NCBI GenBank assembly: GCA_012515395.1
Contig: JAAYYL010000005.1
Span: 1 to 35,850 of the forward strand
DNA: 35,850 bases
Source: Bacteroidales bacterium
GTDB lineage: Bacteria > Bacteroidota > Bacteroidia > Bacteroidales > UBA932
Direction of reading: 5' to 3'
Shown here: positions 24,335-32,465 of the stretch, piece after piece
How positions within the stretch are numbered: the first letter of the stretch is position 1
How the letters are laid out: every line of letters starts with the position of its first letter
Notes under the pieces: model-generated
Database searches by the model: none
Seen by the model: only the letters and a program-made list of their open reading frames with translations
What the model was told of the DNA's origin: nothing
Program-made: the position numbers and the translations under genes

Positions 24335-24342
24335 TACTTTTG
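24335..24342 (+). promoter_or_regulatory. Promoter -7 box (TACTTTTG) of the arginine operon leader
   Basis: Exact TAnnTTTG; TTG at 24311-24313 gives a 21-nt spacer, and TTTG at 24317-24320 a shorter alternative. Confidence 0.7.
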
Positions 24343-24349
24343 TCCTGGA

Positions 24350-24394
24350 ATGAATACATCTTTACAGATTCTACGTGTCCGAGTAAGGGCTTAG
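24350..24394 (+). CDS. Putative arginine leader peptide MNTSLQILRVRVRA*
   Basis: ATG AAT ACA TCT TTA CAG ATT CTA CGT GTC CGA GTA AGG GCT TAG; three Arg codons in the last six sense codons; immediately upstream of hairpin and arginine operon. Confidence 0.75.
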   Translation: MNTSLQILRVRVRA

Positions 24395-24444
24395 GGTGCA
24401 GCGACAGCTCCTGCATCCTGTATGCCCATCTTTCCGTCTTTTTT
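24387..24444 (+). promoter_or_regulatory. Putative attenuator hairpin and T-rich tract upstream of the arg operon
   Basis: AGGGTGCAG (24393-24401) pairs with CTGCATCCT (24411-24419), one G-T wobble; outer GGGC (24387-24390)/GCCC (24424-24427); then ATCTTTCCGTCTTTTTT. Confidence 0.62.
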
Positions 24445-24478
24445 CTCAACATCCCATAACCTTAATATTTTTTTGACA

Positions 24479-25066
24479 ATGAATGTGCGCATTCTTGTTG
24501 CCAATGCCTCTCATACAGGCTATGCAGAACGTATTTGTGAATTGATGTATATATCCGCCCTGGAACGTGGAACAGGTATTGCCCGCCGTTCTCCGGAATA
24601 CATCAAAGAAAAAATGATCAGCCAAAAAGCCGTAATAGCACTCGATAGCAAACAACTTGTAGGCTTTTCATACATAGAAACCTGGAGCAATAAATCTTTC
24701 GTGGCAAATTCAGGTCTTATAGTGGACCACGCCTACCGTCACCTGGGAATCGCTTCCAGAATCAAAAGAAAGATCTTCCATTTGTCCAGGGAATTGTACC
24801 CGGATGCAAAGATCTTCGGCATTACAACGGGATCAGCCGTTATGAAAATCAATTCAAAACTGGGTTACAGGCCTGTTCCGTTTTCGGAACTGACCCGGGA
24901 TGAAGCATTCTGGGACGGTTGCAAAGGGTGTCGTAATTACGACATCCTCATCCGGAATGAAAAACGCATGTGCCTTTGTACCGGCATGCTTTACGATCCG
25001 GCTGAACATCCCGCCAGAAAACAACAGAAAGAACAACAACAGACAATAAAAAACAACACCCCATGA
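24479..25066 (+). CDS. GNAT-family N-acyltransferase, probable first enzyme of arginine synthesis (N-acetyl-/N-succinylglutamate synthase role)
   Basis: GNAT core VVGFSYIETW/GLIVDHAYRHLGIASRIKRKIFHLS; first gene of the arg operon; C-terminal Cys motifs CKGC and MCLC. Confidence 0.8.
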   Translation: MNVRILVANASHTGYAERICELMYISALERGTGIARRSPEYIKEKMISQKAVIALDSKQLVGFSYIETWSNKSFVANSGLIVDHAYRHLGIASRIKRKIFHLSRELYPDAKIFGITTGSAVMKINSKLGYRPVPFSELTRDEAFWDGCKGCRNYDILIRNEKRMCLCTGMLYDPAEHPARKQQKEQQQTIKNNTP

Positions 25067-26253
25067 AAACAAAAGTAATATTGGCTTACAGCGGAGGTCT
25101 GGACACCTCTTTTTGCATCCCTTACCTGACGCGGGAAAAAAACATGGAAGTGCATACCCTCCTGGTAAATACGGGAGGATTTTCCGAAGAAGAAGTTTCG
25201 ACCCTGCAGGAAAAAGCCCTGAAACTGGGAGCCGTAACCCATAAAACCATAGATATCAGGGAAACGTATTATTCCCGTTGCCTGAAGTACCTTATTTTCG
25301 GGAATGTGCTGAAAAACAACACATACCCGTTATCGGTAAGTTCGGAACGCGCTTTTCAGGCTATGACGGTAGTCAATTATGCAAAGGAAACGGGCGCCGG
25401 CGCCATTGCTCACGGAAGCACCGGAGCAGGTAACGACCAGGTTCGTTTTGATTATTTCATCCACGTACTGGCACCGGAAATGCAATTGCTGGCACCCGTA
25501 AGAGAATTAAAAATCAGCAGAAAGGAAGAAATCGCCTTTTTGCAAAAAATTGGATTTGACTACCCATGGGAAAAATCCAAATATTCCATTAACCAGGGCA
25601 TCTGGGGAACGAGCATAGGTGGTGCAGAAACACTTCATTCACTGGGCGAACTTCCGGAAGAAGCATATCCTGTGAAACGCACCCGAACGGGTACCGAAAC
25701 CGTTGTCATAGATTATGCAAAAGGAGAACCTGCAGCCCTGAACGGAATATCCATGAACCCGCTTCAGATCATTGAAACACTTCATAAAATTGCCGCTCCA
25801 TACGGTATCGGCCGGGATATCCATATTGGAGATACCATTGTGGGACTCAAAGGACGGGTAGGTTTTGAAGCTGCCGCCCCATTAATCCTGATAAAAGCAC
25901 ATCACCTGCTTGAAAAACACGTTTTGGGAAAATGGCAACTCTACTGGAAAGAACAATTGGCGAACTGGTACGGCATGATGCTGCACGAGGCGCAATACGC
26001 AGACCCGGTCATGAGAAATATTGAAACCTTCCTGGAAAACACCCAGGATCGTGTCACCGGAAAAGTATGGGTCCGCCTGGTTCCCGATACCTTCTTCCTG
26101 AAAGGATGTGAAAGCCCTTACGATCTGATGAACGGCAAATTCGGCGATTACGGGGAAGGGACTACCGCTTTTTCCGGAACGGACGTGGAAGGATTCACCC
26201 GAATCATGTCATTACCCGTAAAAATTTACAATTCACTCGGCAATGAAGAATAA
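25063..26253 (+). CDS. argG: Argininosuccinate synthase
   Basis: VILAYSGGLDTSFCIPYL; GAGAIAHGSTGAGNDQVRFD; SINQGIWGTSIGGAE. Confidence 0.96.
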   Translation: MKTKVILAYSGGLDTSFCIPYLTREKNMEVHTLLVNTGGFSEEEVSTLQEKALKLGAVTHKTIDIRETYYSRCLKYLIFGNVLKNNTYPLSVSSERAFQAMTVVNYAKETGAGAIAHGSTGAGNDQVRFDYFIHVLAPEMQLLAPVRELKISRKEEIAFLQKIGFDYPWEKSKYSINQGIWGTSIGGAETLHSLGELPEEAYPVKRTRTGTETVVIDYAKGEPAALNGISMNPLQIIETLHKIAAPYGIGRDIHIGDTIVGLKGRVGFEAAAPLILIKAHHLLEKHVLGKWQLYWKEQLANWYGMMLHEAQYADPVMRNIETFLENTQDRVTGKVWVRLVPDTFFLKGCESPYDLMNGKFGDYGEGTTAFSGTDVEGFTRIMSLPVKIYNSLGNEE

Positions 26254-27250
26254 AATACGTGCAGCCGTTGCCGGGGGAGCCGGGTATACGGGCGGAGAAC
26301 TCATTCGACTGCTTCTGAATCACCCCAATATAGAGATTGCCGGTATCACAAGCCAGTCGCGGGCCGGCATGGCTGTTGCTTCGGTCCACAGGGACCTGGC
26401 CGGGGACACGGAACTGGTATTTGAAAAGACACTGCCCCTGACAAGCATTGACGTGCTGTTTCTCTGCCTGGGACACGAACGGTCACGCCAATTCATTCGG
26501 GAAAACGACCTGGAAAAGGTTGGTCACATCATAGACCTGAGCCGTGATTTCAGGTCACTGAACGCAAACCCGGAAGGGAAACGCCGGTTTATTTACGGAT
26601 TGCCCGAATCGTATCCCGACCCTGCAACATACGCGAAAGAGGCCAAAGCGTTAGGGAACATTGCCAACCCGGGATGCTTTGCCTCGGCCATTGAACTGGC
26701 ACTGATCCCTCTTGCCCGGGCAAAATGGTTGCAGGACGACATTCATGTCCATGCCATCACGGGAGCTACAGGAGCAGGTGCCAGGCTTTCGGAAACATCC
26801 CATTTTCCTTACCGGGACAACAACTTGTCCGTATACAAGGCTTTCCGGCACCAACATACCGGGGAAATCCGGGAAACACTGTCCATAGCCATGGAAGCGG
26901 AGATTCCACAACTGCATTTTGTACCCATAAGGGGAGATTTTTCCCGTGGTATCCTGACCAGCATATACACATCCTGCAACCGGGACCAGGCAGAGGCCAT
27001 TGAGCTCTACCGCAACTATTACGCTGCCCATCCCTTTGTACACATATCTGACAATGAACTTAGTATGAAAGACGTTGTAAATACCAACAAATGCCTGATA
27101 CATATTGAAAAACACGGGAACATGCTGCATATAACTTCCGTACTGGACAACCTGTTGAAAGGAGCATCCGGGACAGCTCTGCAGAACATGAACCTGATCA
27201 CCGGACTGCCACAAACCACCGGTTTACAATTAAAATCCATCGTTTATTAA
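26243..27250 (+). CDS. argC: N-acyl-gamma-glutamyl-phosphate reductase
   Basis: AAVAGGAGYTGGELIRLLLNHP; NIANPGCFASAIELALIPL; ITGATGAGARLSETSHFPYR. Confidence 0.96.
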   Translation: MKNKIRAAVAGGAGYTGGELIRLLLNHPNIEIAGITSQSRAGMAVASVHRDLAGDTELVFEKTLPLTSIDVLFLCLGHERSRQFIRENDLEKVGHIIDLSRDFRSLNANPEGKRRFIYGLPESYPDPATYAKEAKALGNIANPGCFASAIELALIPLARAKWLQDDIHVHAITGATGAGARLSETSHFPYRDNNLSVYKAFRHQHTGEIRETLSIAMEAEIPQLHFVPIRGDFSRGILTSIYTSCNRDQAEAIELYRNYYAAHPFVHISDNELSMKDVVNTNKCLIHIEKHGNMLHITSVLDNLLKGASGTALQNMNLITGLPQTTGLQLKSIVY

Positions 27251-27261
27251 TCCAAAACATT

Positions 27262-28407
27262 ATGCCGCTATTTCCTGTATACAAAACGTGGAACATCAAC
27301 GCCGTTAAGGCCCGGGGTTGTACCATAACCGACGATAAAGGCCGGGAGTACCTGGATCTTTACGGAGGGCATGCCGTGATTTCCATCGGCCACTCCCACC
27401 CGGTTTACGTGAAAACCCTCTCCGAACAATTGCAGCGCATCGGATTTTATTCCAATGCCATTGTCAACCCCCTCCAGGAAAGACTTGCCGAGGCGCTTAC
27501 GCGCATCTCGGAGTACCCCGGGTACGCTCTTTTCCTGTGCAATTCGGGAGCCGAGGCAAACGAGAACGCGCTGAAACTGGCTTCCTTCCGCAATGGAAGA
27601 AACCGTGTGCTGGCTTTCAAAAGGTCTTTCCACGGAAGGACTTCCGGAGCAGTCGCCCTGACCGACAATCCATCTATCTGCTCCCCCTTCAATGCAAATC
27701 ACCACGTTGATTTTATTGATCTGGACGATTTTGCAGCCCTGGAACAGGCCTTCACACAAAACCAATATGCGGCCGTCATAGTGGAAGGCATCCAGGGAGT
27801 GGGCGGAATAAGAGAACCTTCAGCCGCCTTTTTGCAAAAGATCAGGGCTCTTTGCACCGTTCACGACACGGTATTGATCCTGGACGAGATCCAGTCCGGA
27901 TACGGGCGTACCGGGAAATTCTTTGCCCACCGGCACGCGGGAATCCGTGCCGATATCGTAACCATGGCCAAAGGTATGGGAAACGGATTCCCTGTGGGAG
28001 GGCTTCTTATAGCTCCGGAATTCAAAGCCGTTCAGGGGCAGCTGGGTACTACCTTCGGGGGAAATTACCTGGCCTGTACCGCTGCTCTGGCCGTTTTGCA
28101 GGTTATAGAGGAAGAAGACCTTATGAGCAACGCGGCACGAATGGGCTCCCTGATCAAAAATGAGATAGGCCATTTTTCGGAAGGGATCAGCGAGTACAGA
28201 GGACGCGGCCTTATGATAGGCCTTGAACTCAGGCCGGAGCATCCCGCAAGCGCTACACTCAGGGAGGACCTGCTCATGAAAGGACAGATTTTCACCGGTG
28301 CCGCCGGTACACATATTATCAGGCTCTTGCCGCCTCTGTGCCTGACGGAACAAGAGGCAGAAACGTTTATCAAATTTTTTAAACAATGTTACATTTCACA
28401 TCGGTAA
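27262..28407 (+). CDS. argD: Acylornithine aminotransferase (class III PLP)
   Basis: LFLCNSGAEANENALKLAS; LILDEIQSGYGRTGKFFAH; TMAKGMGNGFPVGGLLI. Confidence 0.95.
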   Translation: MPLFPVYKTWNINAVKARGCTITDDKGREYLDLYGGHAVISIGHSHPVYVKTLSEQLQRIGFYSNAIVNPLQERLAEALTRISEYPGYALFLCNSGAEANENALKLASFRNGRNRVLAFKRSFHGRTSGAVALTDNPSICSPFNANHHVDFIDLDDFAALEQAFTQNQYAAVIVEGIQGVGGIREPSAAFLQKIRALCTVHDTVLILDEIQSGYGRTGKFFAHRHAGIRADIVTMAKGMGNGFPVGGLLIAPEFKAVQGQLGTTFGGNYLACTAALAVLQVIEEEDLMSNAARMGSLIKNEIGHFSEGISEYRGRGLMIGLELRPEHPASATLREDLLMKGQIFTGAAGTHIIRLLPPLCLTEQEAETFIKFFKQCYISHR

Positions 28408-29351
28408 AAGACATCGGGTCCCTTGACTCGGCAATGGCAAAGGCCATGGAAATAAAGAAAGATCCATTTGCGAACTGCAACCTGGGGAAACACAGGACTG
28501 CCTTGTTGCTGTTTTTCAATTCCAGCCTGAGGACGCGACTGAGCACCCAGAAAGCTGCCGAAAATCTGGGCATGAACGTGATTGTGCTGGATGTACAACA
28601 GGGCGCCTGGAACCTGGAAACACGCAAGGGAGTGGTAATGGATTCGGACAAACCGGAACACCTGTTGGAAGCCATTCCGGTAATGGGCTGTTACGCAGAC
28701 ATCATAGGGGTTCGTTCTTTTGCACGCTTTGAGTCAAAAGAAGCCGATTACAACGAAGAAATACTGAATAAGTTCATTAGGTATTCTGGAAAACCCGTTA
28801 TCAGCCTTGAATCGGCCACACGACATCCGTTGCAGAGTTTTGCAGATCACATAACCATTGAAGAATTCAAAAAGAAACCGAAACCCAAAGTCGTACTTAC
28901 CTGGGCTCCCCATCCCCGGGCTCTTCCGCAGGCAGTAGCCAACTCATTTTCCGAATGGATGGTCGCGGCAGGTTACGATCTGACCATAACACACCCCCAG
29001 GGGTACGAATTGGACGAACGTTTTACACACGGAGCAAAAATCGTTTACGATCAGTCAGAAGCCTTCCGGGGTGCCGATTTTATTTATGCAAAGAATTGGG
29101 CCGCATACAGGGATCCTGTCTACGGCAAGATCCTGAGCAAGGATATGTCATGGATGGTAGACAGCCGGAAAATGGAGCTGACCGACAACGCGTACTTCAT
29201 GCATTGCCTTCCTGTACGCAGAAACATGATCGTCAGTGACCGGGTGCTGGACAGTCCGGCATCGCTGGTCATTCCGCAGGCAGCCAATCGGGAAACCGCC
29301 GCCCAGGCAGTCATACAAAGCATTCTGGAAACACTTTTAAAACAGCACTGA
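28386..29351 (+). CDS. argF': N-succinylornithine carbamoyltransferase
   Basis: NSSLRTRLSTQKAAENLGMNV; MDSDKPEHLLEAIPVMGCYADIIGVRSFARFE with Pro at residue 90; HCLPVRRNMIVSD. Confidence 0.92.
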   Translation: MLHFTSVKDIGSLDSAMAKAMEIKKDPFANCNLGKHRTALLLFFNSSLRTRLSTQKAAENLGMNVIVLDVQQGAWNLETRKGVVMDSDKPEHLLEAIPVMGCYADIIGVRSFARFESKEADYNEEILNKFIRYSGKPVISLESATRHPLQSFADHITIEEFKKKPKPKVVLTWAPHPRALPQAVANSFSEWMVAAGYDLTITHPQGYELDERFTHGAKIVYDQSEAFRGADFIYAKNWAAYRDPVYGKILSKDMSWMVDSRKMELTDNAYFMHCLPVRRNMIVSDRVLDSPASLVIPQAANRETAAQAVIQSILETLLKQH

Positions 29352-29353
29352 CC

Positions 29354-30094
29354 ATGTATCTGGATATTTTTAAGATTGGCGGCAACGTTATTGATGATCC
29401 CGCAACACTGGAAAGTTTTCTGGACACTTTTTGTCAATGTCCGGAACGAAAGATACTGGTCCACGGAGGCGGTGTCATGGCTACCGATCTTGCCCGTCGC
29501 CTGGCCATTCCGGTGCGGATGCACGAAGGAAGGAGGATTACGGATCAGGAAACACTTCGTATTGCTGTTATGGTGTATGCCGGATGGATTAACAAAACAC
29601 TGGTAGCTGCCCTGACGGCCCGGAACTGCAGGGCGCTGGGACTGACCGGAGCTGACGGAAAGTGTATCATAAGCCGGAAACGGGATCCCCGCCCTGTTGA
29701 TTACGGACTGGCCGGTGATTTGATGCCCGGTAGCATAAACGCCCTTTTCATTGACAGCCTTTTGAATGAACAAATCATACCGGTTTTCTCTCCCGTTACC
29801 TGTAGCAGCGAAGGACAATTATTGAATACAAATGCAGATACGATAGCCTCAGCTGTAGCTTTATCCTTATCCGTGAAATACAAAGTTCGCCTGCGCTATG
29901 TATTCGACCGGGAAGGGATCATTTGCCCGGGTTCAGAGAAACCCCTGGCCTTGCTCAGCCGCCTGCAATACCTGGAACTGCGCAAAAAAGGCATCATTTA
30001 CGGGGGAATGATACCGAAAGTTGAAAATGCGCTGGAAGCGCTGGAATCCGGAATTGAAGAAGTTTATGTTGGAAAAACATCCGTGCAACTATGA
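29354..30094 (+). CDS. argB: N-acylglutamate kinase
   Basis: IFKIGGNVID; KILVHGGGVMATDLARRL; LLNTNADTIASAVA; GGMIPKVENALEALESGIEEVYV. Confidence 0.94.
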   Translation: MYLDIFKIGGNVIDDPATLESFLDTFCQCPERKILVHGGGVMATDLARRLAIPVRMHEGRRITDQETLRIAVMVYAGWINKTLVAALTARNCRALGLTGADGKCIISRKRDPRPVDYGLAGDLMPGSINALFIDSLLNEQIIPVFSPVTCSSEGQLLNTNADTIASAVALSLSVKYKVRLRYVFDREGIICPGSEKPLALLSRLQYLELRKKGIIYGGMIPKVENALEALESGIEEVYVGKTSVQL

Positions 30095-31146
30095 AAGACA
30101 TGACCGAATTGCTGTGTCGCCTGATAAAAACCCCGTCGGTTTCGGGAAAGGAAGACAAGACTGCCGCGATACTGGCAGATCACTTGTTTGAAAAAACGGG
30201 TATGCAGCCAAAACGTATAGGAAACAATGTTATAGCATGCAAAGAACCTCACCGGAAAGGCCGACCAACCGTTCTGCTTTGTTCACATCACGATACGGTC
30301 ATGCCGGCTTCCGGTTATTCACGTGATCCCTACGATCCGGTTATTCAGGAAGATGACCATGGAGCACCCCGTCTTTACGGTCTGGGAAGCAATGATGCCG
30401 GAGCGTCCGTAGTTTCTATGACAGAGGCTTTCTGCTCCCTCAACGACTTGCCTTACAACCTGGTTTTGATCCTTGCCGCAGGAGAGGAAAACTCGGATCC
30501 GGCCGGGATTGCGTCTGTTTTGCCCCGTTATCCGGATATCGCATGCGCTATTGTAGGTGAGCCTACGGGCTTGCAGGCTGCCACGGGTGAAAAAGGACTG
30601 TTGGTGTTGGACGGCTACGTCCGTGGACGTCAGGGACATGCCGCGCGAAACGATGGCATCAACGCCCTTTACAAAGCAATGGACGACATTGCCGCACTCC
30701 GGAATTTTTCGTTCGCGGAAAACTCGGCAATCATGGGAAAGATACATCTGCAGGTAACGCAGATACAGGCCGGCACGCAGCACAACGTCATCCCGGGAGA
30801 ATGCCGTTACGTGGTGGACATTCGTACCACGGACGCCTGCGGCAATGCGGAGATCGTGGAAAGGCTCAGCAGCGTGGTCTCGGGTCAGCTGATCCCAAGA
30901 AATATGGCCAATAAAGCCTCGGTAACCCCGGAAGGTCATCCGTTGCGGGATGCAGTAAAAAAAGCGGGGATTCCAACGTTCGTTTCCCCGACCACATCGG
31001 ACTGGATGCGCCTGCCTTGCCCGGCTATAAAACTCGGCCCGGGAGATTCAGCCCGGTCACATACACCGGATGAATTCATATACTTGTCTGAATTGCAGCA
31101 GGGAGTTGATGTTTATAAAAAAGTACTTACTCACCTTACCTTATAA
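30091..31146 (+). CDS. argE: M20-family N-acylornithine deacylase
   Basis: LLCSHHDTVMPASGYSRDPYDP; GAGEENSDP-like AAGEENSDPAGI; AIKLGPGDSARSHTPDEFI. Confidence 0.9.
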   Translation: MKDMTELLCRLIKTPSVSGKEDKTAAILADHLFEKTGMQPKRIGNNVIACKEPHRKGRPTVLLCSHHDTVMPASGYSRDPYDPVIQEDDHGAPRLYGLGSNDAGASVVSMTEAFCSLNDLPYNLVLILAAGEENSDPAGIASVLPRYPDIACAIVGEPTGLQAATGEKGLLVLDGYVRGRQGHAARNDGINALYKAMDDIAALRNFSFAENSAIMGKIHLQVTQIQAGTQHNVIPGECRYVVDIRTTDACGNAEIVERLSSVVSGQLIPRNMANKASVTPEGHPLRDAVKKAGIPTFVSPTTSDWMRLPCPAIKLGPGDSARSHTPDEFIYLSELQQGVDVYKKVLTHLTL

Positions 31147-32465
31147 TGATCATGAAAACACTTTGGGAAAAAGGGATTGAAACACCGGAAGAAGTCAGCC
31201 GCTTTACAATCGGCAACGATGCCGGGTGGGATATGAGGCTGGCCCCGTACGATATTACAGGATCCATAGCCCATGTAAAAATGCTGGGAAAGACCGGATT
31301 GTTGACCAGGAAGGAAACAGATACGCTTACAACAGCCCTGGATGCATTGCGTCAAAAGATCCTTAACCGGGAAGTGGAAATCGGTCCGGAAGCGGAAGAC
31401 ATTCATTCATTTGTGGAAATGTTCCTTTCGCGTGAACTGGGCGATCTGGGCAAAAAAATCCATGCCGGAAGGTCCCGCAATGACCAGGTAATGACAGATA
31501 TCCATCTATACCTGAAAGACGTGTGCCGGAATATTGCACGGGAAGTCCGCAGCCTTTTTGACCTGATGCAGGAAAAGGGGCGCCTGTACAAAGACGTGCT
31601 GATGCCCGGTTACACGCATGAAAGACCGGCCATGCCTTCTTCTTTCGGTCTTTGGATGGGAGCTTATGCCGAGACACTCGTTGATGACATTCATCAGTTA
31701 ACGGCCGCGTGGATGCATAGCGACCAGAATCCCTTGGGTTCAGCCGCGGGTTACGGAAATTCTTTCCCTCTGGACCGTGAGGAAACAACACGTCTTTTGG
31801 CATTCGGGACAATGAAGTACAACAGCATTGCCGCACAAATGAGCCGTGGAAGAACCGAACGCTCCCTGGCATTTGCCATGGCATCGCTGGCCGGTACGCT
31901 CAACAAGCTGGCCGCAGATTGTTGCCTTTATTCGGGACCTGACTTCGGGTTTTTTGATTTTCCGGATTCGCTGACTACCGGCAGCAGCATTATGCCCCAT
32001 AAAAAAAATCCGGATGTATGGGAACTTGTACGTGCCCGGTGCAATGTCATTCAGGGAGTTCCCTGCCAGATCACCCTTTTGTGCACCAACCTTACCCACG
32101 GGTACCACAGGGATTATCAACTGTTGAAGGACTTGCTCTTTCCCGCTATAGATTCGCTTTTTGAATGCCTGAATATAAGCAGGCTTATGATCTCGCAAAT
32201 GCAAGTCAACGACAAAATCTTTACCCATGAACGTTACGACCTGCTTTTTACCGTGGAATCGGTCAACCGCCTGGTCCTGGAAGGAATCCCATTCAGGGAC
32301 GCATACCGCCAGGTGGCCGACAGTCTTGGAAATGGCTCATACAAGGCGCAAAAAAATATTGTTCATACCCATACGGGCAGCATTGGGAATCCGGCTTTTG
32401 ATCAGGTTTTGCAAAAAATGGAACAAGCTCTTACCCCCATCCTGAAAGAGGTTGTGCAGGAATAA
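31146..32465 (+). CDS. argH: Argininosuccinate lyase
   Basis: DIHSFVEMFLSRELGDLGKKIHAGRSRNDQV; signature GSSIMPHKKNPD; TAATG overlap with argE. Confidence 0.96.
   Translation: MIMKTLWEKGIETPEEVSRFTIGNDAGWDMRLAPYDITGSIAHVKMLGKTGLLTRKETDTLTTALDALRQKILNREVEIGPEAEDIHSFVEMFLSRELGDLGKKIHAGRSRNDQVMTDIHLYLKDVCRNIAREVRSLFDLMQEKGRLYKDVLMPGYTHERPAMPSSFGLWMGAYAETLVDDIHQLTAAWMHSDQNPLGSAAGYGNSFPLDREETTRLLAFGTMKYNSIAAQMSRGRTERSLAFAMASLAGTLNKLAADCCLYSGPDFGFFDFPDSLTTGSSIMPHKKNPDVWELVRARCNVIQGVPCQITLLCTNLTHGYHRDYQLLKDLLFPAIDSLFECLNISRLMISQMQVNDKIFTHERYDLLFTVESVNRLVLEGIPFRDAYRQVADSLGNGSYKAQKNIVHTHTGSIGNPAFDQVLQKMEQALTPILKEVVQE

Follow-up and report, generated by a model that had tools for sequence, protein, structure and literature searches.

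The window analysed here, a stretch of 35,850 nucleotides from a Bacteroidales genome, holds an arginine operon that is preceded by a promoter box, a short open reading frame (ORF) and an RNA hairpin. The features are as follows.

24335..24342, + strand: Bacteroidota sigma-A -7 box TAnnTTTG (TACTTTTG), from the sequence, the box-ATG spacing in relatives and the box position in PMC9723704; predicted transcription start site (TSS) ~24347
24350..24394, + strand: near-leaderless leader peptide ORF MNTSLQILRVRVRA, stop codon TAG at 24392-24394; equivalent ORF at 103/158 GNAT loci
24377..24382, + strand: conserved putative sensor codons GTC CGA (rare Arg codon, inosine wobble), from the in-frame TCCGA, the CGA bias and the tRNA-Arg set of a closed relative (G023)
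24387..24427, + strand: hairpin abutting or overlapping the stop codon, outer stem GGGC/GCCC 24387-24390/24424-24427, inner stem 24392-24401/24411-24420, from fold z -2.77 and the genus alignment
24428..24445, + strand: pyrimidine-rich, G-poor stretch with T6 (24439-24444), a weak U-tract not conserved in the genus, from the sequence and relatives
24479..25066, + strand: GNAT-like acyltransferase, first gene of the arg operon; Pfam Acetyltransf_7/10 only below cut-off, no NCBIfam model matched, weak PA4794 match
25063..32465, + strand: argG, argC, argD, argF' (acylornithine carbamoyltransferase), argB, argE-like M20 hydrolase and argH, from Pfam/NCBIfam

The box, the ATG at 24350, the ORF to 24394 and the T6 run are all present where the original prediction had placed them, and the next gene does open the arg operon, with the GNAT ATG at 24479 followed by argG onward (Pfam/NCBIfam calls). 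The ORF reads ATG AAT ACA TCT TTA CAG ATT CTA CGT GTC CGA GTA AGG GCT TAG, its Arg codons being crowded into the tail of the peptide, just ahead of the hairpin. According to a Flavobacterium study (PMC9723704), the sigma-A box lies at -12 to -5, which puts the predicted TSS near 24347 and gives a 5′ UTR of ~3 nt in the window. Relatives have 12-18 nt (mode 16) from box start to ATG, so that with the same box position their 5′ UTRs would measure ~0-6 nt. This tight spacing is noteworthy because leaderless mRNAs are a minority (5.5%) in F. psychrophilum (PMC9723704).

Three observations concern the GNAT gene itself. Its product is a candidate for the acylation that opens arginine synthesis, a step otherwise missing. 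In the window (24474-24500) and in relatives L002-L010, which covers most species of genus g1, a 10-bp hairpin, AACAA.GAATG/CATTCTTGTT, encloses the GNAT start codon; since the stem is nearly invariant, selection for structure is inseparable from coding. At the GNAT loci of genera g5 and g16, many contigs of metagenome-assembled genomes (MAGs) stop 400-750 nt upstream of the gene, which suggests that a repeat, such as an rRNA operon or an insertion sequence, lies close by on that side.

Distribution of the leader among relatives

Searches for the GNAT protein covered 100 relatives and 300 genomes belonging to the window's family, and the DNA upstream was compared at 158 loci. Under a strict rule (the box, an ATG 13-18 nt on and two or more Arg among the nine C-terminal residues), a leader was found at 87 of 141 loci of the family and at 0 of 17 loci from other families, while the controls gave 51 of 2820 shuffles (1.8%) and 1 of 158 reverse complements. 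A wider rule identified an equivalent leader in the same place at 103 of 158 GNAT-argG loci, all in the window's family; this rule used CGA as a criterion, for which reason codon usage was counted again in a set picked without CGA. Extra leaders were recognised by eye at L007, L178, L209, L212 and L022, loci with a truncated contig or a more distant box. The leader is present across many genera and in over 100 species, with tails of ILR(V/I)RxRA or near in the window's genus and HVRRCA, RRVRR, FRFRVRR, VRRRR and similar in other genera. A search of 10 genomes with the leader pattern found the arg locus alone convincing, other matches being no more numerous than those of a reversed-pattern control. 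Sequence comparison thus confirms the leader ORF and hairpin as real, beyond chance, although the conservation expected across Bacteroidales is confined to one ArgR-less family.

A second, group-specific conserved hairpin lies between leader and GNAT at L024, L032, L155, L137 and their kin (GGGACAGCAGAATCCC, GACAATCCAGGTTTGTC, GGAGGGATGTCCCTCC and GCAGG..CCTGC).

Codon choice and CGA decoding

Arg makes up 19% of leader residues vs 5.5% in coding sequences (CDS). CGA accounts for 153 of 311 Arg codons (49%) in 82 distinct ORFs picked by Arg residues alone and for 193 of 370 (52%) in the wider leader set; the window CDS use it for 18 of 490 (3.7%). The motif TCCGA is always framed NTC-CGA (83/83 in the Arg-selected set, 110/110 in the wider set), with its distance to the ATG ranging from 9 to 27 codons. 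Ahead of CGA, 93 motif leaders have GTC in 82 cases and ATC in 10; in CDS, GTC makes up 18% of the Val codons. Among the tRNA genes of the closed relative G023 (2,657,245 bases), which bears the leader, those for Arg carry the anticodons ACG, CCG, TCT and CCT, and tRNA-Arg-TCG is absent. Where a TCG tRNA is missing, CGA is decoded by inosine (I-A) wobble, so it should be readable in this way only. In assays of the Salmonella his leader, CGA and CGA-containing pairs ranked with the Arg codons that stall ribosomes strongly (PMC4046918).

It had been proposed that three different Arg codons together form the sensor. The comparison shows a single codon instead, CGA after NTC, and because this is held almost everywhere we place the sensor of the window at 24377-24382. 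The AGG at 24386-24388 would mainly serve the GGGC of the stem, since relative L009 carries the non-Arg codon TGG there.

Hairpin and termination signals

The predicted hairpin at the stop codon was recovered, the outer GGGC/GCCC unchanged and the inner stem now read as 24392-24401/24411-24420. Folding of 24380-24450 (71 nt from CGA) gives -24 kcal/mol (z -2.77; matched by 3 of 200 shuffles). In an alignment of the window's genus (A1, 10 sequences) 93% of cells are paired vs 36-50% with a slid partner, with two double changes; in genus g16 (A2) the paired share is 99%, 8 cells show double changes and none of 500 shuffles scores as high. The hairpin sequence varies between genera, and most hairpins start at or beside the stop codon. 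In 96 of 97 leaders the first helix starts no farther than 15 nt from CGA, against 84% of shuffles, a moderate difference. A ribosome's footprint extends ~12 nt downstream of its A-site codon, so the 5′ arm is reachable by a ribosome at CGA. This conserved geometry upholds the idea that a stalled ribosome would cover the 5′ arm; a ribosome sitting at the leader stop codon would likewise mask it, which counts against the attenuation reading. In agreement with a reservation of the original prediction, the folds and consensus structures examined contained no antiterminator, and by eye the genus offers only an unconvincing TCC/GGG pairing of 3-4 bp. The Rfam search proposed at the outset returned no leader or riboswitch match, T-box included, at curated or permissive thresholds.

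As an attenuator, the prediction holds in part: a conserved Arg-codon leader does precede the arg operon, but the U-tract is not conserved. A hairpin with a T-run occurs before GNAT in 23 of 97 leaders vs 13 of 194 shuffles (7%), and T is not enriched after the helix (0.357 vs background 0.330), in keeping with the earlier caution that the weak U-tract of the window makes no textbook terminator. Good terminators are nevertheless found at the hairpin site in L006, L034, L024 and L169, and because they occur at this same place, termination remains the first guess for the output. His operons of the window's family served as positive control: of their ten leaders with runs of at least four His codons, 10 of 10 had a strong hairpin and T-run behind them; the Arg leaders are therefore unlike the local textbook attenuator.

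These His-run leaders (e.g. MSKRTNINALHHHHHHHRHHKWQVAFSV) stand at the hisG loci L264-L279, with textbook terminators 36-56 nt on, before the his operon, and L277 is one within the window's own genus (MHIQHLHHHHHHPCSQAR). No trpE leaders were seen among 7 loci.

Relation to ArgR

The ArgR C-domain is encoded in 21 of 158 genomes with a GNAT locus and never together with the leader (Fisher 1e-11, with genomes counted as independent and relatedness ignored). In 17 of these 21 relatives argR adjoins the GNAT gene, 14 times just upstream on the same strand and 3 times divergently. Neither ArgR domain was found in the closed G023, nor in G010 and G000; No ArgR was found for the window's own genome, which is 79% complete, and its relatives with near-complete or closed genomes give the same result. 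On the tree of GNAT proteins, the leader spans a clade with support 100/99, within which it is lost here and there and ArgR appears in a single row; the remaining ArgR rows fall outside. Sampling for ArgR was by genome and included many MAGs, and some lineages carry neither leader nor ArgR. Our reading is that the leader replaced ArgR once, close to the family's base, and that on a few later occasions this change was reversed or the leader lost. That the leader would have taken ArgR's place is strongly supported by this distribution.

Among Flavobacteriaceae, the GNAT-argG loci L080, L081, L082, L084, L086, L088 and L131 have two short Arg-rich ORFs in tandem, one ~300 nt and the other 117-180 nt upstream, whose Arg codons are mostly CGC/CGT, not CGA. 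The second ORF ends RRPLGR/RRPLRA or similar and has a GCCC-GGGC hairpin. ArgR was not found in five Flavobacteriaceae genomes with these ORFs. These ORFs look like a separate arrangement.

Discussion

In this study, we examined the segment ahead of an arginine operon, and we consider it probable that it acts as a ribosome-mediated arginine sensor in cis, standing in for a lost ArgR. Clustered cognate codons just ahead of a terminator hairpin are the hallmark of ribosome-mediated attenuation, as in the his, trp, leu and thr leaders. Comparison between genomes documents the conserved ORF, its codon choice and frame, the hairpin, the geometry and the exclusion of ArgR. The signal is very likely the charging of Arg-tRNA, and arginine sensing by codon stalling, as first proposed, accords with the Arg enrichment, CGA bias and constant frame in relatives. 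For the output, we lean slightly towards premature transcription termination at a weak intrinsic or factor-assisted terminator, in preference to Rho or to control of the mRNA or its translation.

In the proposed mechanism, transcription would begin ~3 nt ahead of the leader ATG, so that a ribosome could load once the RNA emerges and would soon reach GTC-CGA, a slow Arg codon type. With Arg-tRNA charged, it would pass CGA, terminate at the adjacent stop codon and leave; the hairpin, which begins 7 nt downstream of the C of CGA, would then fold and operon expression would be lowered. With Arg-tRNA scarce, the ribosome would wait with its A site at CGA, or at the following Arg codon, and cover the 5′ arm, preventing the hairpin and letting RNA polymerase continue into GNAT-argG-argH.

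It is possible, if rather unlikely, that the Arg stall is sensed but the hairpin is no terminator, with stalling setting Rho loading on the C/U-rich, G-poor stretch or the access of an RNase. The missing U-tract enrichment after the hairpin, the G-poor stretch that follows it (window 24428-24478; 13% G in relatives) and the precedent of speF, where Arg codons are combined with Rho and RNase G (PMC6386406), would all suit such a route, against which stand the good terminators exactly there in L006, L034, L024 and L169. Translational control, in which stalling in the leader refolds the RNA and frees or hides the GNAT start codon, seems improbable to us: it would give a role to the 10-bp hairpin around that ATG in most species of genus g1, but the g1 stem is nearly invariant coding sequence, is not seen in other genera, and structure around the start codons does not exceed that of shuffles (unpaired 0.50 vs 0.46).

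We hold two further readings to be very doubtful. One has the nascent chain sensing free arginine or ornithine, like SpeFL with its HIRR motif or the fungal arginine attenuator peptide, and a large group of leaders does have HVRR near the C-terminus, like the HIRR of orf34 (PMC6386406). Yet the leaders gave no Pfam match to SpeFL, the two motifs share V/I-R alone, tails past HVRR vary freely, the motif is mostly next to the stop codon rather than deep in the tunnel, and constraint extends to the third bases of the GTC and CGA codons, unnecessary for sensing by a peptide. The other, scarcely credible, takes GTCCGACG as an operator, in DNA or RNA, that a protein would bind, with the ORF incidental; TCCGA is indeed conserved at the nucleotide level, and some genera have a partial dyad CGTC-C-GACG, but the motif keeps the same frame (83/83) despite an ATG distance of 9-27 codons, and the dyad is absent from the window's genus. 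A chance ORF and hairpin, to which we attach practically no probability, is refuted by the conservation of the leader, together with its codon bias and constant frame.

The preferred reading, a ribosome-based arginine sensor in place of ArgR, has several implications. The loss of ArgR tied to the leader would be a clear case of a protein regulator swapped for a ribosome-based sensor, and related species holding either leader or ArgR allow the two regulators to be compared. The preference for CGA, a codon read only by I-A wobble, offers a testable point on codon choice in attenuators. The contrast with canonical His terminators in the same family raises the question of how a leader hairpin that lacks a U-tract could control an operon. 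More tentatively, and with less confidence than doubt, we suggest a compact attenuator specific to Bacteroidota, in which a near-leaderless ORF brings a ribosome to an inosine-read CGA and the waiting ribosome masks the hairpin without antiterminator or U-tract, with one ArgR replacement near the family base and separate, similar tandem Arg leaders in ArgR-less Flavobacteriaceae.

To our knowledge, no bacterial arginine-biosynthesis attenuator has been described; literature searches gave none, and those on ArgR or arginine attenuation in the phylum Bacteroidota found nothing direct. A 2010 survey of premature terminators mentions neither Bacteroidetes nor arginine (PMC2965389). In the same phylum, the main text on F. 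psychrophilum reports 'strong clues' of leader-peptide attenuation before amino-acid operons and conserved 5′ elements at pheA and hisG, and does not name the arginine operon (PMC9723704). The ArgR repressor controls the same operon, but is a protein, and is absent wherever the leader is present. As in the orf34/SpeFL leader of Salmonella and E. coli speF, Arg codons of a leader peptide would sense arginine availability (PMC6386406), but that system controls ornithine decarboxylase (polyamine synthesis) through a leader peptide of 34 codons that has a Shine-Dalgarno sequence and lies within a long 5′ leader; the SpeFL/orf34 profile (PF10940) had no match among relatives' leaders of at least 20 aa, the peptide of the window being below scannable length. 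With the his, trp, leu, thr and phe attenuators, the segment shares a short ORF of cognate codons before the cognate operon, followed by a hairpin, and His versions exist in the window's own family. It differs from them in its arginine signal, in the single rare codon type that is held constant, in being nearly leaderless, in a hairpin that adjoins the stop codon, in a U-tract that is scant or absent, and in showing no antiterminator.
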